DNA of 64,000 nucleotides from Hymenobacter terrestris (GTDB taxonomy: Bacteria; Bacteroidota; Bacteroidia; Cytophagales; Hymenobacteraceae), in contig NZ_JABKAV010000004.1 of the NCBI RefSeq assembly GCF_013377905.1, positions 62,001 through 126,000 of the forward strand, given 5' to 3'. The position numbers and the translations under genes were made by a program. The notes under the pieces are model-generated. The model saw nothing but the letters and a program-made list of their open reading frames with translations. It was not told where the DNA came from and searched no databases. The first letter of the stretch is position 1; each line of letters begins with the position of its first letter. Below are positions 38,377 to 58,306 of this stretch, piece by piece.

Positions 38377-38450
38377 TGGCACGGGCGGAGAGATTCGAAC
38401 TCCCATCAAAGGTTTTGGAGACCTCTATTCTACCCTTGAACTACGCCCGT
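38377..38450 (-). tRNA. tRNA-Trp (CCA)
   Basis: Acceptor stem ACGGGCG/CGCCCGT with discriminator G at 38380, T arm GGGAGTTCGAATCTCTC, and anticodon CCA at 38416-38418. The 3' CCA is encoded in the genome (38379-38377), unlike the three tRNAs upstream. It lies between tuf and secE. Confidence 0.95.
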
Positions 38451-38510
38451 GTATGCGTCCCGCCCAGCCCTAAAGCCGGATTGGGACTGCAAATGTAGGT
38501 AACTCTTTAG

Positions 38511-38550
38511 ACAAAACAAATCCGCCCTCGAAATTTTCGAGGGCGGATTG
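38511..38550 (-). terminator. Intrinsic terminator after tuf
   Basis: AATCCGCCCTCGAAA and its complement form a stem of up to 15 bases (38519-38549), followed on the minus strand by TTGTTTTGT. It lies 30 bases after the tuf stop and upstream of tRNA-Trp. Confidence 0.85.
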
Positions 38551-38579
38551 TCTTATTTCAGCAGTTTCTCGAAAGAAAA

Positions 38580-39767
38580 CTACTCAGTAATTTCGGTTAC
38601 CTGACCGGCACCTACCGTCCGGCCACCCTCACGGATAGCGAAACGCAGGCCTTTCTCCATAGCTACCGAGTTGATCAGTTCAACCGAGATAGTTACGTTG
38701 TCGCCGGGCATTACCATTTCTACACCCTCGCCCAGCATAATGATGCCGGTTACGTCGGTGGTGCGGAAATAGAACTGGGGACGGTAGTTGTTGAAGAACG
38801 GAGTGTGACGACCACCTTCCTCTTTCGACAGTACGTACACCTCAGCCTTAAACTTGGTGTGAGGCTTAACGGAACCTGGCTTGCAGATTACCATACCGCG
38901 ACGGATGGCTTCCTTCTCGATACCACGGAGTAGCAAACCAACGTTGTCGCCAGCTTCACCACGGTCAAGAATCTTGCGGAACATCTCCACACCGGTTACA
39001 GTCGATTTCAAGTTCTCAGCACCCATGCCGAGAATCTCCACCTGCTCACCCGAGTTTACAATGCCACGCTCGATACGGCCGGTAGCAACCGTTCCACGAC
39101 CCGTAATCGAGAACACGTCCTCAACAGGCATCAGGAAGGGCAGGTCGGTCAGACGAGCAGGAATCGGAATGAAGGAGTCAACAGCATCCATCAGCTCCTC
39201 GATTTTGGGAACCCAGTTGGCATCGCCATTCAGGCCACCCAGAGCCGAGCCCTGAATTACGGGGATGTTGTCGCCGTCGAAGTCGTAGAACGAAAGCAGC
39301 TCACGGATTTCCATCTCCACCAGCTCGAGGAGCTCTGGATCGTCCACCATGTCTACTTTGTTCATGAATACCACCAGCTGGGGAACACCAACCTGACGAG
39401 CGAGCAGGATGTGCTCACGGGTCTGGGGCATTGGGCCGTCGGTAGCAGCTACCACGAGGATAGCGCCGTCCATCTGGGCAGCACCGGTAACCATGTTCTT
39501 CACATAGTCAGCGTGACCGGGGCAGTCAACGTGAGCGTAGTGACGGTTAACGGTAGAATATTCTACGTGCGAAGTGTTGATGGTAATGCCACGCTCTTTT
39601 TCTTCGGGAGCATTGTCGATCGAAGAGAAGTCGCGCTTGGCAGCCAGACCTTTGCTAGCCAGTACCTGAGTAATGGCAGCGGTGAGGGTGGTTTTGCCGT
39701 GGTCAACGTGACCGATTGTGCCGATGTTTACGTGCGGCTTGGACCGGTCAAAATTTTCTTTAGCCAT
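38580..39767 (-). CDS. tuf: Elongation factor Tu
   Basis: 395 residues: GTPase motifs [11 protein letters not shown] (18-28), [12 protein letters not shown] (switch I), [20 protein letters not shown] (about 81-100), NKVDMVDD (about 136-143), GSAL. Domains 2 and 3 include [13 protein letters not shown] and the C-terminal [22 protein letters not shown]-Tu delivers aminoacyl-tRNA. It is co-located with tRNA-Tyr, Gly, Thr upstream and tRNA-Trp downstream, a widely conserved arrangement. Confidence 0.99.
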
Positions 39768-39941
39768 TGTAAAGAGATTTAGAGGAATTTTGAGGTGAGA
39801 AGGGAAAACGCGACTTAAAACCTAACTATACAGAAGAAAGCGAAACACAGCTCTGCTTGACCAGGGACTGCACGTCGCTTTACTTGGCTGACAGTTCCAA
39901 AACGGTGCAGTCGCGCTGCCCCGTTGGTACTCGTAATTCTG

Positions 39942-40013
<72 letters not shown>

Positions 40014-40121
40014 TGGTACTGTTTAGCCCGCTGGCGCGTAGCTGGGGCAAAGGTACGACAGGAGAACAACATTTGCCAGCCTGGGCTGGCGCAAGCTGTT
40101 GTCAGGCGTACTGTTGCTGCG

Positions 40122-40194
40122 AGCGGGAGACGAGGTTCGAACTCGCGACCTGCAGCTTGGAAGGCTGCCGCTCTACCAACTGAGCTACTCCCGC
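40122..40194 (-). tRNA. tRNA-Gly (TCC)
   Basis: Acceptor GCGGGAG/CTCCCGC, D arm GCTCAGTTGGTAGAGC, anticodon stem GCAGC/GCTGC with anticodon TCC at 40159-40161, T arm GCGAGTTCGAACCTCGT. Discriminator T at 40122. CCA not encoded. Confidence 0.95.
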
Positions 40195-40207
40195 GGGGGA
40201 AGTTTGC

Positions 40208-40283
40208 AAGTCGGGAAGTTCAGACCTTAGATAATGGACACTGCACTGGCAGACCCACTTCTGTTTTCCGAACTTCCCGACTT
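40208..40283. repeat. Inverted repeat between tRNA-Gly and tRNA-Tyr
   Basis: Perfect 14-base arms 40208-40221 (AAGTCGGGAAGTTC) and 40270-40283, separated by 48 bases. It sits in the spacer of a tRNA transcript and could affect processing. It resembles in style the other spacer inverted repeats in this window. Confidence 0.75.
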
Positions 40284-40297
40284 ATAAACTGAAAATG

Positions 40298-40377
40298 TGG
40301 GGGTGAGAGGACTCGAACCTCTGAACCCGAAGGAGCTGAGTTACAGTCAGCCGCAATTGCCACTATGCGACACCCCC
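40298..40377 (-). tRNA. tRNA-Tyr (GTA)
   Basis: Acceptor GGGGGTG/CACCCCC, anticodon GTA at 40342-40344 within stem GCTGA/TCAGC. A long variable arm (CTCCTTCGGG region) is typical of class II tRNA-Tyr; T arm AGAGGTTCGAGTCCTCT. Discriminator A at 40298, CCA not encoded. First element of the tRNA-tuf transcript. Confidence 0.95.
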
Positions 40378-45267: not shown

Positions 45268-45379
45268 TTTAGAAATGAGTACCAAGAAGTGAGAGGGGAG
45301 ACTTTCGTGCTGCCGGCCCAATTTGGTCGGATATCAGCACGAAAGTCTCCCCTCTCACTTCCTGACACTCATTTCTAAA
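45268..45379. repeat. Large double-stem inverted repeat between frr and nadD
   Basis: Outer arms 45268-45280 and 45367-45379 (13 bases, perfect) and inner arms 45286-45312 and 45335-45361 (27 bases, perfect) share one axis. The 22-base loop contains CCGGCCC and GGTCGGATAT. The right outer arm includes the nadD stop codon (45375-45377). The loop-proximal motif CAGCACGAAAG resembles that in 25695-25800. It likely serves as a two-way terminator. Confidence 0.88.
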
Positions 45380-45977
45380 CGTAGTACCCTCCCACCCGAA
45401 TCTGCTGTTCTACCACTTCGGGTAGCAAGTAGCGGACCGATAGGCCGTCGCGCAGGCAGCGGCGAATAAAGGTGGCCGAAATATCGAGTAGTGGGGCCTC
45501 TACCACGCGCACAGCGGGCGGCAGCGGGTTGGACAAGGTGTGGCCGGGGCGTGGGTACACGTAGATTTCTACCTCGGCCAGCAGCCGGTCAGCGTCTTTC
45601 CAGCGCGGCAGGCCCGCCACGTTGTCGCCACCCATGAGCAGCACGAACTCCTGGCCCGGATGCAGCTGCCGCAACTGGTCAAGCGTATCGATGGTGTAGC
45701 TGGGCTTGGGCAGGCGAAACTCGATGTCGAGCACGCGTAGCCGCTCGTTGCCAGCAATGGCACTGGCGACCAAGGTCAGCCGCGCCTGCGCATCGAGCAA
45801 ATCGGCCTGAGCCTTGAAGGGGCTCTGGGGTGACACGATAAGCCAGACTTCGGCCAAGTCGGTGTGCGTGGCCAGGAAGTTGGCCAGAATCAGGTGGCCG
45901 GTATGAATGGGGTTGAAGGAACCAAAAAGCAGCCCCACTTTCCGGCCCGAGGGGGTGACAGAAGTGGGGCTGCTCAC
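45375..45977 (-). CDS. nadD: Nicotinate-nucleotide adenylyltransferase
   Basis: 200 residues: GLLFGSFNPIHTGHLILANF (nucleotidyltransferase HxGH motif), VSPQSPFKAQ, SYTIDTLDQL, LLMGGDNVAGLPRW, and ISATFIRRCLRDGLSVRYLL. NadD adenylates nicotinate mononucleotide in NAD synthesis. Its start overlaps the gmk stop by four bases, so the genes are coupled. Confidence 0.97.
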   Translation of the reverse strand: MSSPTSVTPSGRKVGLLFGSFNPIHTGHLILANFLATHTDLAEVWLIVSPQSPFKAQADLLDAQARLTLVASAIAGNERLRVLDIEFRLPKPSYTIDTLDQLRQLHPGQEFVLLMGGDNVAGLPRWKDADRLLAEVEIYVYPRPGHTLSNPLPPAVRVVEAPLLDISATFIRRCLRDGLSVRYLLPEVVEQQIRVGGYYV

Positions 45978-46558
45978 AAAATGGCCGATTCAGCGGTTAT
46001 AAAAGCGCGCACCAGTCGTTCGGCTTCGTCGACGGCCTTATCGAGGTCATCGTTGGTGATGACCACGTCAAAGCGGTCTTCAAACGTAAGCTCGAAGTTG
46101 GCCTTGTATAAGCGGGCTGAGATGCTGGCTTCCGAGTCGGTAGCGCGGTGGCGGAGGCGTTGCTCCAGGATTTCCAGCGAAGGAGGTTTCACGAACACCG
46201 CTAAAGCACGGTCTTGGTAAAACTCCTTGATGCTGAGGCCACCTTTCACATCTACATCGAGCACCGAGTGCTGGCCATTTTCCCAGATGCGCTCGACTTC
46301 TTGCTTCAACGTGCCATAGAACGCGCCTTCGTACACCTCTTCCCACTCCACAAAATCGTCGTGGCGGATTTTCTCCTGAAACTCCTGAACGGAGATAAAG
46401 TAGTAATCCTTACCGTTGGCTTCAGTGCGGCCACGCTTATCGCGCGTGCAGGCCGAAATAGAGAAGCTCAGTTCCGGCATTCGGGCCAGCAGCCGGTGGA
46501 CAATGGTGGTTTTGCCGGCCCCGGAAGGCGCGGAGAAAGCAATGATTTTACCCTGCAT
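45974..46558 (-). CDS. gmk: Guanylate kinase
   Basis: 194 residues: P-loop APSGAGKTTIVHRL (about 10-23), SISACTRDKRGRTEANGKDY, FEFQ-like EFQEKIRHDDFVEWEEV, YGTLKQEVERIWENGQHSVL, DVKGGLSIKEFYQ. It phosphorylates GMP to GDP. It starts 9 bases after the anti-sigma gene. Confidence 0.97.
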   Translation of the reverse strand: MQGKIIAFSAPSGAGKTTIVHRLLARMPELSFSISACTRDKRGRTEANGKDYYFISVQEFQEKIRHDDFVEWEEVYEGAFYGTLKQEVERIWENGQHSVLDVDVKGGLSIKEFYQDRALAVFVKPPSLEILEQRLRHRATDSEASISARLYKANFELTFEDRFDVVITNDDLDKAVDEAERLVRAFITAESAIL

Positions 46559-46567
46559 CGGGTAAAA

Positions 46568-46858
46568 TTAGGCCATTTCTCTCTGAAGTTGGGCAAGAAT
46601 GCGCTGGGAAAGTGCAGCCGGGGCTCCTTTGCGTACCACCTTCTCAGTCAAAAAGTCGATAAAAACCTGCTGTTTCTCTAAGCTATCAAAGCATGGCGAG
46701 CAGTCTTCGGCGTGGCTGACGAAATAGTCCTCATCCTCCGCCGAGGGGTCTTGCCCCACGATAATTTGGTCGAGAATAGTATTCACGCGGTCACAGTCGG
46801 GGCCGTCGCTAAGCGCGGTGGTTGCCTGTTTGGTTGATGAGGTAGAGGTAGGTTCCAT
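46568..46858 (-). CDS. Small zinc anti-sigma factor, RsrA-like
   Basis: 96 residues, soluble, with no membrane helix. The zinc anti-sigma motif is HAEDCSPC (H49, C53, C56), preceded by C22, giving C-x26-H-x3-C-x2-C. This is nearly the spacing of the redox-sensing anti-sigma factor RsrA (C11, H37, C41, C44). The C-terminus APAALSQRILAQLQ also resembles that family. It is 26 bases after an ECF sigma gene whose product resembles SigR and is most likely its antagonist. Redox sensing is inferred from the cysteine pattern, not shown. Confidence 0.78.
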   Translation of the reverse strand: MEPTSTSSTKQATTALSDGPDCDRVNTILDQIIVGQDPSAEDEDYFVSHAEDCSPCFDSLEKQQVFIDFLTEKVVRKGAPAALSQRILAQLQREMA

Positions 46859-46884
46859 AACTACTGCCTGGCAATTGAAAGAAA

Positions 46885-47532
46885 TTAGTCGGTCGTTTCT
46901 TGGTCGTCTTCGTCGTCGGTTGCGGCTCCGTTTGTGCCATAACCCATCGAACGGGCGTATTTGTCGAGCTTCTCTTTGAGGAAATTACGGGCCCGGTGCA
47001 GGCGCGAACGCACAGTACCAATGGGGATGTCGAGCACCTTAGCCATTTCCTCGTACGTGAACCCTTCCAGGTCGCAAAGTATAATAACTGTGCGGAAATC
47101 CACTGGCAGCGAGTTTAATGCGCGCGCCACTTCGTCGCCGATGAGGTCGCGCACGGCTTGCTGCCGCATGTCCGAGGAGGTGGTACCGGCATCAGAGTCG
47201 GCCTCCACTTCTTCGGAGTTGTAGTACCCTTCGATTTCGCTGTAATCAACCTTGGCAGGTTGCTTACTTTTCTTGCGAAAATCGTTGATGAACGAGTTTT
47301 TGAGGATGCGAAACAGCCACGCTTTGGCGTTGGTCCCCGGTTCGAAGTACTCAAAGAAGCGATATGCTTTCAGATAAGTTTCCTGCACCAAGTCATTTGC
47401 ATCATCCTCATCGAGGGTGAGGCGGAAGGCGAAGTTATATAGGGGGTCGAGCACAGGCATTAGCTCGGCTTGGAAACGCCGGTCTTTTTCCTCTTTGCTC
47501 AACTTAGGGATCCGCTCGGGAGAATCGCTCAT
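46885..47532 (-). CDS. ECF sigma factor, SigR/SigH-like
   Basis: 215 residues from ATG 47532 (MSDSPERIPKLSKEEKDRRF). Region 2 reads LYNFAFRLTLDEDDANDLVQ, ETYLKAYRFFEYFEPGTNAK, AWLFRILKNSFINDFRKK. Region 4 reads ALNSLPVDFRTVIILCDLEG, FTYEEMAKVLDIPIGTVRSR, LHRARNFLKEKL. The QPGTN-AWL-RIL-N-FIN-RK pattern is that of SigR. An acidic tail (TDDEDDQETTD) ends it. A longer reading from 47580 was not used. Transcribed with the anti-sigma gene, gmk and nadD. Confidence 0.88.
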   Translation of the reverse strand: MSDSPERIPKLSKEEKDRRFQAELMPVLDPLYNFAFRLTLDEDDANDLVQETYLKAYRFFEYFEPGTNAKAWLFRILKNSFINDFRKKSKQPAKVDYSEIEGYYNSEEVEADSDAGTTSSDMRQQAVRDLIGDEVARALNSLPVDFRTVIILCDLEGFTYEEMAKVLDIPIGTVRSRLHRARNFLKEKLDKYARSMGYGTNGAATDDEDDQETTD

Positions 47533-47577
47533 GGACGCTAAAAAGTGTAGTTTTCGGGGCCGAAAACCGCGGTCAGA

Positions 47578-47585
47578 CAAATATA
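47578..47585 (-). promoter_or_regulatory. Candidate -7 box before the sigma-factor operon
   Basis: The minus strand reads TATATTTG, a full TAnnTTTG match, 45 bases before the sigma-factor start. No -33 TTG is seen at normal spacing. The box lies between this gene and the end of the O-antigen ligase-like gene. Confidence 0.45.
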
Positions 47586-47599
47586 CTGTTTATACCATT

Positions 47600-48907
47600 C
47601 TACGCCGGCGAAGGTTTGGGAGGCTGCCGGAGCCGGCGCTCAGCAGCCACAATCAGAAAGCCATAGAGAAAAACAAACAGGTTGTAACTCGTTTGCAACT
47701 CCAGCAGCGAATCGGTGAGCATGGCCACAGCCGATAGCAGCACAAATCGGTACACGTACGGATTCCGGCGTAGGGTGGGTTGCCCCAACGGCCCCAATAG
47801 CACGAGCAGCCACAGCGCCAGCCCTACTACGCCACCCGCCACCAGCTGGTGCAGGTACTGATTGTGCACCATCACGCGGTTGGCAGGCAGCAGCCCGTAG
47901 CTGCGCCAGGCGTACTGATCCATCATGGCGGCATGCGCATCGGCTGGGCCCACACCCAGCAGCGGGTGCTGACGGGCCACTACAGTGGCGGTCTGCCAGG
48001 CAGCTAGCCGCCGCGAGAGCGAGAAATGATTGATGTCGTGCTGGAGTTCGAACTGTTCGAGGTCGAAGAAGGTGTTGTTGACCCGTTCGCGCACCGAGCC
48101 TAGGGTCTGATAGGCCAACCAAGGCCCTACAGCCAGCGCCAGCAGCAGCGTAGCCCCTAGCCAGAACCGGCGGCGCACCAGCAGCGCCAGCAGCGCCTCT
48201 ATCAGCAGCAGCGTGTAAGCAGCCAGCAGTCCTGAACGGTACGCCAGCACATGCAGTACCACCACGCAGACCACTACGCTCAGGCCCAGCGCTATCCGCA
48301 GACAGTGCGGCGCGTGCCGCTGCCGAGCCATTCGGAAACCCAAAAAGGTTGCCAGCGCCAGCATCAATCCAAAGTGGATATGGAAGATGCGCGTGACGGA
48401 GGGCATACTCTGACCGAGGCGAAAAGCTTCGTTGGCAGTAGCAGGGTCGCGTAGGTACTGCCCCACGGTGGCCGCCCCAATAAGCGCTATGCCCACCACA
48501 AACAGGCTGCCCACCCCAAACCGTTGCCGGCCAGTGAGCGGTACGGCTAGCCCGAATACCAGGGGCACGGCCAGCCACGGCAGCTGCCGGAACAGCTCAT
48601 GCCGCCATTCGGGCCATTCGTGCGTGTAGAGGCCGCTAAGCAGCAGCAGCACATAGAGGCCGGCCGGAGCCCACACTGTGCGCAGTCGCAGCCATTGGGG
48701 TACTTGCCGGCGTATGTGCGGGTTGGCCAGCGCCGCCACTACCCCCACTACCGGCGCCAGTGCCACTAGGGCCCGCGAAGCCAGCAGCCCCACCACCCCG
48801 GCCACGCAGGCCAGCAACAGCAGGTATTGCGAAAGCCGGCCAGAGCACCACCAGCTTTTCCAGCCAGCGGGCTCAGGTATTGAAGAAACAGATTCGGAAG
48901 TGGGCAT
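47600..48907 (-). CDS. O-antigen ligase/Wzy-like membrane protein
   Basis: 435 residues from ATG 48907 (MPTSESVSSIPEPAG). About 10-12 transmembrane helices are visible, with a large loop near the middle-to-end that contains RLAAWQTATVVARQHPLLGV, GPADAHAAMMDQYAW and HNQYLHQLVAGGVVGLALWL. This is the pattern of the Wzy_C / O-antigen ligase family (LLGVG, HNxYL). It probably joins or polymerises surface polysaccharide at the periplasmic face. It is downstream of two glycosyltransferase genes. Confidence 0.82.
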   Translation of the reverse strand: MPTSESVSSIPEPAGWKSWWCSGRLSQYLLLLACVAGVVGLLASRALVALAPVVGVVAALANPHIRRQVPQWLRLRTVWAPAGLYVLLLLSGLYTHEWPEWRHELFRQLPWLAVPLVFGLAVPLTGRQRFGVGSLFVVGIALIGAATVGQYLRDPATANEAFRLGQSMPSVTRIFHIHFGLMLALATFLGFRMARQRHAPHCLRIALGLSVVVCVVVLHVLAYRSGLLAAYTLLLIEALLALLVRRRFWLGATLLLALAVGPWLAYQTLGSVRERVNNTFFDLEQFELQHDINHFSLSRRLAAWQTATVVARQHPLLGVGPADAHAAMMDQYAWRSYGLLPANRVMVHNQYLHQLVAGGVVGLALWLLVLLGPLGQPTLRRNPYVYRFVLLSAVAMLTDSLLELQTSYNLFVFLYGFLIVAAERRLRQPPKPSPA

Positions 48908-49062
48908 TCGGTTTAGTTGGCAGGCTAAGGCCCGGCGCGGAAACACATTGATGTGGCCTCCGTTAGTTTGGCTGGGGTTATTTACGGCCAGCTATTTATA
49001 CGGACGAGACGCAAGATATTGCCGCTGGTTGCTGATTATACCAACAAGCGGATACGCGCATT

Positions 49063-50106
49063 TTATAGGCCTGTCGGCGGCAGGAGCTTCCACTGCTGTA
49101 CGCGGGCCAGCACCAGGGCCGGCTCCAGGGCTTTAATACAGATACAAGCCGCTGGCTTAGTGCGACAGTCCTGGCAATTGGGCCGGTCGAAAACGAGGTA
49201 GTCGGCATGCGAGCCGAGCGGGGCCCAGCGGCCGGGGTGCATGGGGCGGATGGGCGGGTAGAGGCCCAGCGCGTGTCGGCCCAGCGCAGCGGCCAGGTGC
49301 AGCGGGCCAGTGCTGCCAGCCACCAACCCATCGGCGGCGGCCAGAAAAGTAATGAATTCGGGCAGGGCCAGCTGGCCGGTGAGTTCGGCCTCAATGTAAG
49401 GCTGATTTGTTGTCAGCCATTCGCGCAGTTCTTCGCCTTCGGCCGTTGTGCCCGTCACAAACACGCGGTGTCCGGCTTCGTGCAGCAGGCGGGCCAACTC
49501 CCCAAAATGCGGCAGCCCCCACTCGCGGGCGCTGCCCCGGCTGCGCGGATGCAGCACTATGTTGAGCTGGCCGGGCCCACGGGCCGCCAGCAACTCCCGC
49601 AAATCAGGACGCAGGGGTACGGTGGGCATCAGCTGCACCAAGGGAGCTACTTCAGGCAGTGGCAGCGGGGCCGGTTCGTGCAGCGGAGCCAGCAGGGCCA
49701 AGTTGAGTTGGCTTTCGTGCAGCTCGGAGTTTTTGCGGCTGAGCTTCACCAAACGGTTGCATGTCAGCCAGTGGAACCAGCGGTTGCGGGTGCCGATGCG
49801 CACCTTTATGCCCGCCAACAGCGCTAGTCGGGCCAGGTCTTTATTAGGAAAAATGTGCAGAATAGTATCGGCCCCGACGGTACGCAGAGCGGCTACCTGC
49901 TGGTTGGGCGGCAGCTGCTGCAATTCGTCGAGGCTCACAAAATCATCCAGCCAGGAGCATGCTTCGGCCACGGCGCGGGTGTAGTTTCGGCCCAGCAGCA
50001 GCACCCGGCAGCCCGGAAATAACTGCTTCAGCCGGCCAGCCACCGGCAGCGTGAGCACCACGTCGCCGATGGCGTCGGTGCGGCTGATGAGGATGGTGCG
50101 GCTCAT
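49063..50106 (-). CDS. Glycosyltransferase family 9 (heptosyltransferase-like)
   Basis: 347 residues: N-terminal ILISRTDAIGDVVLTLPVAG with the conserved Asp of GT9 enzymes, a donor-binding C-terminal half with VLHPRSRGSAREWGLPHFGE, VFVTGTTAEGEELREWLT, AADGLVAGSTGPLHLAAALG and LGLYPPIRPMHPGRWAPLG. The family adds ADP-heptose or related sugars to LPS core on the cytoplasmic side. It overlaps the upstream GT2 gene by four bases. Confidence 0.88.
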   Translation of the reverse strand: MSRTILISRTDAIGDVVLTLPVAGRLKQLFPGCRVLLLGRNYTRAVAEACSWLDDFVSLDELQQLPPNQQVAALRTVGADTILHIFPNKDLARLALLAGIKVRIGTRNRWFHWLTCNRLVKLSRKNSELHESQLNLALLAPLHEPAPLPLPEVAPLVQLMPTVPLRPDLRELLAARGPGQLNIVLHPRSRGSAREWGLPHFGELARLLHEAGHRVFVTGTTAEGEELREWLTTNQPYIEAELTGQLALPEFITFLAAADGLVAGSTGPLHLAAALGRHALGLYPPIRPMHPGRWAPLGSHADYLVFDRPNCQDCRTKPAACICIKALEPALVLARVQQWKLLPPTGL

Positions 50107-50870
50107 GCGGAAGGACGGGTTTTAAGCTTGGCGAACTTTAGAAATACGCCCCAGGCCGAAATAGCGGCAATACTGAGGCCCGCAAAGCCATCTAGGAAGC
50201 CGCCTCGCAGCACGTAGCCGTGCACGAATTTCCAGAGCGGCTTCACTACCAAATGGAAAATGGAAACCTGCCGCTTGTTCTTCAGCCAGAGCTCCTCGGC
50301 GGCAATACTGGTGAAACGGTTGAGCTGCTGCACATGCTGCTCGACGGAGGTGTAGGAGTAGTGTAGCGCGTCACCGGTCAGGGGCAGCGGCGCGGGCTGT
50401 CCGGGGGCTAGCTCGTAGCGTTCGTGCAGCAGCAGGCCCTGCCAACTGCCCAGGCGTCGGTCGTAGAGGCGCAGCTTACGGTCGGGGTACCAGCCGCCGT
50501 GGCGCACCCAGTGGCCGCAGTAGCTGGTGAGGCGGGCCAGCGTGTAGCCCCCACCCTGCCAGTTGGCCAGCGCCGCTCGGATGCTGGTTTGCAGTTCTGG
50601 CGTCAGCACCTCGTCGGCATCGAGTTGAAGCACGTGCTCGTGGCGGGCCTGGGCGGTGGCGTAGTTTTTCTGCTCGACGTAACCCGCGAAGGCATGCTGC
50701 ACCACCCGAACGCCCAGTTCCCGGCATATTTCTACTGTGCGGTCGGTAGAGAAACTATCCACCACCAGCAGTTCGGCGGCCACCGGGCGGGCGGCTTCGA
50801 GACAGCGGGCAATATTGACCTCCTCGTTGAAGGTGATGATGACGACGGACAGCGGAACGGCAGCGGGCAT
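50103..50870 (-). CDS. Glycosyltransferase family 2 (WaaE/KdtX-like)
   Basis: 255 residues from ATG 50870 (MPAAVPLSVVIITFNEEVNI); a TTG nine bases upstream is unnecessary. The GT-A fold shows VIITFNEE, LLVVDSFSTDRTVEICRELG and QLDADEVLTPELQ with the DxD-like DAD. The C-terminus YVLRGGFLDGFAGLSIAAIS is a hydrophobic, membrane-near segment typical of LPS-core glucosyl-type GT2 enzymes. It is translationally coupled to the GT9 gene. Confidence 0.88.
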   Translation of the reverse strand: MPAAVPLSVVIITFNEEVNIARCLEAARPVAAELLVVDSFSTDRTVEICRELGVRVVQHAFAGYVEQKNYATAQARHEHVLQLDADEVLTPELQTSIRAALANWQGGGYTLARLTSYCGHWVRHGGWYPDRKLRLYDRRLGSWQGLLLHERYELAPGQPAPLPLTGDALHYSYTSVEQHVQQLNRFTSIAAEELWLKNKRQVSIFHLVVKPLWKFVHGYVLRGGFLDGFAGLSIAAISAWGVFLKFAKLKTRPSA

Positions 50871-50968
50871 AGGCGGCAAATATCGGATGATTTGGGCGGC
50901 TGGCTGACTGGCGGGTTACCTGTACTACCCACAGGGCATTAAAGGTCTCATCATCCACTTCCCAAGCA

Positions 50969-57922: not shown

Positions 57923-57930
57923 TATCTTTG
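57923..57930 (+). promoter_or_regulatory. -7 box for the B12 riboswitch transcript
   Basis: TATCTTTG fully matches TAnnTTTG, and the riboswitch begins about 7 bases downstream. No clear -33 TTTG is visible. Confidence 0.6.
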
Positions 57931-57936
57931 TAACCG

Positions 57937-58140
57937 TAAAGGTGGCCGGACCCCGATTGGGGGGCGAGGCTGAAAAGGGAATCCGGTTCAAAACCGGAGC
58001 TGTCCCCGCAACTGTACGCTTCACGAGTCGGCGCGTCATCACCGGCCACTGTTTCGGCAGCTGTCTGTTTTCATGTTGAGAACAGGCGGCAGAAATGGGA
58101 AGGCGACGCGCCAGGAGCAAGCCAGGAGACCTGCCTTTGC
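57937..58140 (+). promoter_or_regulatory. Cobalamin (adenosylcobalamin-type) riboswitch
   Basis: Conserved elements are in order: AAGGTGGCCGG start, CTGAAAAGGGAATCCGGT, the GAGCTGTCCCCGCAACTGTA core at 57998-58016, GGCCACTG, GGAAGGCG at 58098-58105, and the B12 box AGCCAGGAGACCTGCC at 58120-58135. It lies 170 bases upstream of the TonB receptor reading frame. No strong terminator is seen after it, so control may be translational or by another mechanism. Confidence 0.95.
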
Positions 58141-58306
58141 ATTTCCCCATGTTCAGCGCCTGCGGAGGAAGGGCGGAGAATGAATTCAGTAGCGGCCTTT
58201 CGGGGACGCAGCGTACCCTTCTGTTTTCGGACTCGACTTCGGTCGGTTGGTGTCTTTGGCATAAACCCCATGAAGTTTTGAACTGAATTTTTCGGTCACG
58301 AAAATT

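Follow-up and report, generated by a model that had tools for sequence, protein, structure and literature searches.

What is a sigma factor gene with a small, cysteine-bearing neighbor doing at the head of gmk (guanylate kinase) and nadD (nicotinate-nucleotide adenylyltransferase)? The question is raised by a 64,000-nucleotide (nt) stretch of the Hymenobacter terrestris genome (contig NZ_JABKAV010000004.1; the whole stretch is called the window here), in which a sequence-only reading had seen a SigR/RsrA-like redox pair that might couple GMP phosphorylation and NAD synthesis to oxidative stress. We propose, with a probability of roughly 0.6, that the operon encodes a cytoplasmic sigma/anti-sigma pair of SigR/RsrA type, which in Hymenobacteraceae would be switched by thiol oxidation and whose genes would form one transcription unit with gmk and nadD, starting from a promoter region ahead of the sigma gene.

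A sigma/anti-sigma pair of SigR/RsrA-like kinship beside gmk and nadD

The sigma/anti-sigma pair beside gmk-nadD is confirmed. All four genes lie on the minus strand at 45375-47532, where they had been placed, and the tight packing ascribed to them was measured as a 9-nt gap between the anti-sigma gene and gmk and a 4-nt overlap of gmk and nadD; sigma and anti-sigma are 26 nt apart. The gmk and nadD products score above the curated cut-offs of their families (TIGR03263, 201.4 bits against 160.45; TIGR00482, 158.5 bits against 112.45). We set the start of the sigma factor at the ATG at 47532 in preference to one near 47585, because the N terminus MSDSP is present in 36/36 same-genus loci looked at.

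The best of the 96 NCBIfam families matched by the window sigma factor, an extracytoplasmic function (ECF) sigma factor, is TIGR02947 (SigH_actino, 176.8 bits), and a search of the Protein Data Bank (PDB) returned Mycobacterium tuberculosis SigH (5zx2, E 4e-44) and the region 2 structure of SigR (1h3l, E 1.1e-22). These matches support the SigR-type kinship that had been claimed. TIGR02947 is matched at E <= 1e-30 by 19/19 aligned sigma factors of the order Cytophagales, the window's included; at 1.9e-53 it also has the lowest best E-value of the 11 families listed for them.

The only NCBIfam match of the window anti-sigma protein is TIGR03988 (RsrA; 29.7 bits, E 5.2e-07), and a Pfam search with this protein alone gave no match. 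A profile built from 51 Cytophagales members, namely the window protein and those of 50 named loci, found RsrA (5frf) first in the PDB at 7e-11 and RsiW second at 3.4e-7, with the next match at 0.21. Among the members of this profile, 50/51 match TIGR03988 at E <= 0.01 (best 1.1e-17), and 25/51, the window protein not among them, match zf-HC2 at E <= 0.01. By its homology to solved structures of the class I anti-sigma domain (ASDI/ZAS), the window protein is assigned to that domain class. Its predicted model has helices at residues 22-34, 40-50, 54-75 and 81-95 (mean predicted local distance difference test score, pLDDT, 71.4; predicted template modeling score, pTM, 0.40), and the RsrA structure was absent from its 11 Foldseek matches and from the VIA-align rows.

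Several results weigh against a close equivalence with the actinobacterial system. Both proteins fall below the equivalog cut-offs, the sigma factor below the 251.55 bits of TIGR02947 (SigR/SigH) and the anti-sigma below the 62.5 bits of TIGR03988; because of the latter we call the protein RsrA-like, not RsrA. Searched alone, the window anti-sigma matched RsrA at E 0.86, below an unrelated phage-type protein. With its predicted model the best Foldseek E-value was 5.5 and none reached 0.001, and in VIA-align an unrelated dehydrogenase (Z 4.0) scored higher than RsiW (Z 3.7, root mean square deviation 5.5 Å) and MucA (Z 3.3). In addition, the Asp of the LDGE motif in helix 1, nearly invariant across the wider anti-sigma alignment, is replaced by Val or Glu in 30 same-genus proteins. 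We take this Asp to correspond to D11 of RseA. According to a coevolution study, D11 of RseA is a key sigma contact, and RseA is inactive when this residue is exchanged for His (PMC7406223). In the window's genus, either another contact must stand in for it or sigma binding must have changed. The family-profile comparison thus upheld the SigR/RsrA-like kinship of the sequence-only reading, with SigR/SigH and RsrA as nearest curated families, and left both proteins under the family cut-offs; we hold the SigR/RsrA-like identity of the pair to be very likely.

The cysteine register is kept in Hymenobacteraceae and erodes elsewhere in the order

The window anti-sigma carries C22, H49, C53 and C56 in the arrangement C-x26-H-x3-C-x2-C. 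In RsrA, the zinc ligands are Cys11, His37, Cys41 and Cys44, a spacing of x25 (PMC4960319), and the cysteine pattern with near-RsrA spacing that had been pointed out therefore stands: the ligand set C-x25-H-x3-C-x2-C is present with x26, and Cys11, Cys41 and Cys44 all have counterparts. None of 2000 shuffles of the window anti-sigma gave C-x24-27-H-x3-C-x2-C; the x24-27 spacing was accepted as the RsrA register in all motif counts. The same paper describes Cys11 as essential for redox sensing and Cys41 and Cys44 as interchangeable, and it mentions that others reported a disulfide in RslA (HHCC) on peroxide treatment (PMC4960319), so that the RsrA-type cysteine rule for redox sensing is disputed.

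Among Hymenobacteraceae, which include Hymenobacter, Pontibacter, Adhaeribacter and Rufibacter, the three cysteines are in register in 52/52 proteins and the full motif, His included, in 47/52. Class members from outside the order (n = 17) comprise 11 with the full motif, 5 with the three cysteines and no His, and 1 without CxxC. The other 64 named Cytophagales are more varied: 6 have the full in-register motif, 3 are in register without His, 15 have a shifted first Cys with His and 27 a shifted first Cys without it, and 13 have no CxxC. Sequences drawn from the order outside the genus (n = 68) fall into 16 with the full in-register motif, 9 in register without His, 6 and 22 with a shifted first Cys with and without His, 8 with no CxxC, and 7 with CxxC and neither the first Cys nor the His.

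Two of these observations tell against a thiol switch: the His is lost in 2/36 same-genus proteins (L013, L028) and in 3/3 from Rufibacter (L185, L191, L194), and the full motif is incomplete in 58/64 other named Cytophagales while the operon persists. The motif is thus maintained in Hymenobacteraceae and is changing or decaying in other Cytophagales. Its retention in the family, together with its loss elsewhere from an operon that is retained, favors a thiol role in Hymenobacteraceae; the same loss argues against the view that the operon exists because of redox sensing. The predicted redox motif thus held in Hymenobacteraceae (47/52) and in class members outside the order (11/17) and did not hold generally in Cytophagales (6/64 named, 16/68 drawn). 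We lean slightly toward a thiol switch in Hymenobacteraceae, which the register of the three cysteines would suggest.

The pair seems to predate its link to gmk and nadD

The window anti-sigma has a match in 37/37 same-genus genomes, its own included (one match, in G004, contains an internal stop codon), and all four genes stand in order in 30/30 same-genus loci examined; Hymenobacter citatus (L208) shows this arrangement of the four genes as well, with a very similar anti-sigma. In a draw of 118 genomes from the order, the sigma factor is present in 95 (E <= 1e-45), a count that omits L131, the second and weaker sigma match of genome G051, and three loci outside the order (L033-L035). These 95 loci divide into 60 with anti-sigma and gmk, 17 with anti-sigma and no gmk in the fetched stretch, 5 with gmk and no detected anti-sigma, and 13 with neither, so that an anti-sigma is adjacent in 77/95. 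Where gmk is present (65 loci), it starts at most 869 nt past the sigma stop, and nadD was seen in 51/65, some stretches ending before nadD. The hidden Markov model used to detect anti-sigma genes had been trained on the order set, and the space searched with it was small.

A second set, the best 80 of 581 named loci and hence leaning toward the query, covers Pontibacter, Rufibacter, Adhaeribacter, Algoriphagus, Belliella, Cyclobacterium, Fulvivirga, Roseivirga, Larkinella and others, and partly overlaps the draw (L075 and L195 share the same anti-sigma). Anti-sigma is found in all 80 loci, gmk downstream in 77 (once 2.6 kb off) and nadD in 73; of the three loci without gmk, one stretch stops after 301 nt. 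The anti-sigma/gmk gap lies between -5 and 22 nt in 74/77 (median 6). The surveys of both sets accordingly bear out a conservation of gene order in Cytophagales, which the sequence-only reading had proposed to survey (60/95 and 77/80).

In a search of 197 genomes of the class, the sigma factor (1e-55) was present in 18 from outside the order, with an adjacent anti-sigma in 17/18 and gmk in 0/18 within a flank of about 1.5 kb. Because the pair is found there without gmk, it looks older than the gmk-nadD link, which belongs to the order in this sample. As a query, the genus anti-sigma had few matches beyond its genus (in 4/22 same-order genomes, and 4 of its 7 matches in the 197 class genomes); distant anti-sigmas were located by searching for the sigma factor and then reading the next gene. 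At four loci (L115, L120, L121, L124), gmk lies 73-79 nt past the sigma gene with no anti-sigma detected between them, and the sigma factor there may be free or otherwise controlled.

Promoter evidence points to constitutive transcription

Ahead of the sigma gene, TAnnTTTG is the most frequent element; we take it to be the phylum's housekeeping -7 element. It was found upstream of sigma in 57/80 named loci (7.7 expected) and in 22/36 loci of the genus (2.1 expected), and upstream of gmk in 5/76 named loci (1.5 expected); expected counts for this element come from approximate dinucleotide shuffles, and those for the two motifs below from single-base shuffles. Upstream of sigma, a -33-like TTG is seldom found at a suitable spacing from TAnnTTTG (7/36 in the genus and 1/80 named at spacings of 17-23; 10/86 order regions at 17-21). 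The motif GGAAT/C-N15-20-GTT, which we assume for SigR-type promoters, occurred upstream of sigma in 0/36 same-genus regions (0.45 expected), 1/86 order regions (2.5 expected) and 4/80 named loci (3.3 expected). Element counts and spacing suggest that the pair, gmk and nadD would be co-transcribed from the region upstream of sigma, and we consider a single transcription unit probable. One count weighs against this: within the genus, TAnnTTTG lies within 30 nt of gmk in 25/37 loci (0.63 expected), so gmk may have a promoter of its own there.

A hairpin at that junction (Table 1) begins on the final base of the anti-sigma stop codon and carries the gmk ATG in the loop. A perfect stem of 9-11 bp is present in 12/24 clade-1 loci, the rest of the clade having mostly G-T wobbles, and a stem of at least 7 bp in 12/114 loci overall. 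GC replaces AT in L018 and L019 and one mismatch occurs in L016 and L017; the covariation is weak. The hairpin could couple gmk translation to that of the anti-sigma, or the same letters could serve as a -7 element.

Upstream of sigma, both the AACC-N16-GGTAT and the TAnnTTTG element are found again in Pontibacter and in some members of the genus. The variant AAC[CA]-N15-16-[GC]GTAT occurs in 22/52 Hymenobacteraceae regions (0.18 expected) and in 8/150 others (1.03 expected). Genome-wide, AACC-N15-17-GGTAT has 66 sites in the window's genome against 45 control sites, and GCAACC-N15-17-GGTATG has 29 sites in 8 Pontibacter genomes against 14, of which 8/29 are the operon itself. The motif looks like an ECF promoter, yet it defines no regulon. 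As another regulon motif, AAACC-N15-17-GTATAA was rejected (2 sites in the window's genome, 4 control sites). An htrA-like gene (L235), met through a looser motif, was likewise dropped as a sigma target, the sigma-operon motif being present in only 3/19 same-genus loci. Upstream of htrA-like genes of the genus (identified by eye; L265-L283), GCAAC[CT] is found in 19/19 and GCAAC[CT]-N20-28-CGTT in 18/19; the latter may be the promoter of some ECF sigma factor.

Overall, the promoter evidence points to constitutive transcription of the operon. Since gmk is needed at all times, the operon promoter is probably a housekeeping one, and the pair would then be controlled mainly after translation. The elements counted upstream of sigma (TAnnTTTG in 57/80, the SigR-type motif in 0/36) do not show that oxidation drives gmk and nadD together, as had been suggested, and oxidative co-induction of the two genes seems unlikely to us.

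Proposed mechanism and alternative readings

We envisage that the helical domain of the anti-sigma, as in its homologs, would keep the sigma factor off RNA polymerase. In Hymenobacteraceae, an RsrA-type trigger disulfide would arise when C22 is oxidized together with C53 or C56; zinc, where the His is present, would be expelled, the anti-sigma would refold, and the sigma factor would be freed. The gmk-nadD link would mean steady co-expression, and a stress-induced rise would require autoregulation, of which there is a hint at most.

The zinc finger could instead be structural or disused and the signal something other than thiol oxidation, as RsiW needs no zinc to bind its sigma factor. Loss of the ligands from an operon that is kept would fit this account, the 64 other named Cytophagales including 13 proteins without CxxC and 30 with CxxC and no His; against it stand the three cysteines in register in 52/52 Hymenobacteraceae and 16/17 class members outside the order, and the fact that where the His is lost the cysteines stay (5/52 and 5/17), a pattern that fits selection for thiols better than structural zinc. 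We judge this account rather unlikely. A broader proposal would see in these proteins an old, overlooked SigR/RsrA-like thiol switch of Bacteroidota that does without a complete zinc site and that in Cytophagales became wired to GMP and NAD synthesis, oxidation altering both supplies; we regard it as a long shot.

With respect to the gene linkage, even odds seem right for a passive one, in which the pair came to sit ahead of a housekeeping operon, is retained since gmk depends on its promoter, and the arrangement has no regulatory meaning. The housekeeping-like element upstream of sigma agrees with such a link, as do the absence of gmk from the 18 loci outside the order (in about 1.5 kb of flank), the 17/95 order loci with the pair and no gmk in the stretch fetched, and the 5/95 with sigma and gmk and no detected anti-sigma, whereas the gene order is kept across many families (60/95 order loci, 77/80 named loci), and chance linkage is usually shorter-lived than that. 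A passive link does not exclude a thiol-switched SigR/RsrA-type pair. It is also possible, if doubtful, that the sigma factor drives its own operon through the ECF-type promoter AACC-N15/16-GGTAT, so that activation raises gmk and nadD. The 22/52 occurrences in Hymenobacteraceae, in the genus and in Pontibacter with differing spacer letters, speak for it; yet the motif was defined post hoc from these sequences, close relatives inflate the count, 30/52 Hymenobacteraceae lack it, other regions show 8/150, and the genome-wide counts (66 against 45; 29 against 14) yield no clear regulon.

Other features of the window

Beside the nadD end of the operon lies an imperfect palindrome, which is situated between an frr-like gene (identified by eye) and nadD and extends into the stop codon of nadD. 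With related copies of 79-83% identity at two further sites, on contigs C97 and C147 of this genome, it is a small repeated palindromic element. The remaining features are listed in Table 1.

Table 1. Positions of the operon, its putative control elements and other features in the window
Feature	Position	Strand	Description
Operon upstream region	47533..47620	minus	Putative elements: AACC-N16-GGTAT (47592-47616), TATATTTG (TAnnTTTG), hairpin GGTTTTCGGCCCCGAAAACT (47549-47568)
ECF sigma factor, SigR/SigH-like	46885..47532	minus	P0001, 215 amino acids (aa); sigma70 regions 2 and 4
RsrA-like class I anti-sigma, C22 H49 C53 C56	46568..46858	minus	P0002, 96 aa; TIGR03988 and profile matches
Junction hairpin ATTTTACCC-GATGCA-GGGTAAAAT	46545..46568	minus	9-bp stem, gmk ATG in loop
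gmk, guanylate kinase	45974..46558	minus	P0003, 194 aa; TIGR03263
nadD, nicotinate-nucleotide adenylyltransferase	45375..45977	minus	P0004, 200 aa; GTG start; TIGR00482
Imperfect palindrome	45268-45379		112 nt; 45-nt arms, 93% complementary; 22-nt center
O-antigen-ligase-like and two glycosyltransferase-like genes (by eye)	47600-50879		Upstream of the operon
Cobalamin riboswitch	57923-58152	plus	99.1 bits
Four tRNA genes	38380-40377	minus	Three clustered at 39942-40377

Relation to known sigma/anti-sigma systems

A 2020 survey describes Bacteroidetes sigma factors of the ECF12 (SigR-type) group as lacking a neighboring class I anti-sigma and leaves their control open (PMC7406223). If the sigma factors described here belong to ECF12, the adjacent anti-sigma contradicts that view, and the partner reported missing is probably the next gene downstream; we found no paper stating this in searches that covered open-licence papers only. 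Control of the Bacteroidetes SigR-type sigma factors could then, if they are ECF12, be tested with one gene pair, given an RsrA-like neighbor in 77/95, 80/80 and 17/18 loci. Group ECF248 comes from Indibacter alkaliphilus, has no known anti-sigma, and has glycosyltransferases in its neighborhood (PMC8999054). Indibacter carries the sigma/anti-sigma-gmk operon (L176), glycosyltransferase-like genes also lie upstream of the operon in the window (Table 1), and ECF248 may be this sigma group. Repeatedly, the His has been lost and the three cysteines have stayed, which offers a natural experiment on the part of zinc in RsrA-type sensors; the tie to gmk and nadD would matter if sigma activation altered GTP or NAD supply.

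The system closest to this pair is SigR-RsrA of Streptomyces coelicolor, with SigH of M. tuberculosis (ECF12), by family and structure matches, by the CHCC ligand set with its N-terminal Cys, and by a sigma factor and small anti-sigma encoded side by side; in actinobacteria, too, the genes of SigR/SigH-type sigma factors and their anti-sigmas are neighbors. The window pair differs in scoring under both family cut-offs, in being joined to gmk-nadD with no SigR-type consensus upstream in the genus (0/36), in a His that is not strictly conserved, and in the replaced LDGE Asp. RsiW of Bacillus subtilis, a zinc-motif anti-sigma of class I, comes second in the profile search (3.4e-7) and matches the window protein weakly in structure (Z 3.7). 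It is bound to the membrane and undergoes proteolytic cleavage; in the window protein, of 96 aa, no membrane helix is evident by eye. EcfO-Reo of Bacteroides/Phocaeicola was first reported as a pair induced by prolonged oxygen exposure, and Reo is said to span from the cytoplasm to the cell surface (PMC13114119). Compared by description, both are sigma/anti-sigma pairs of Bacteroidota; Reo reaches the surface, whereas the window anti-sigma is small and apparently soluble.

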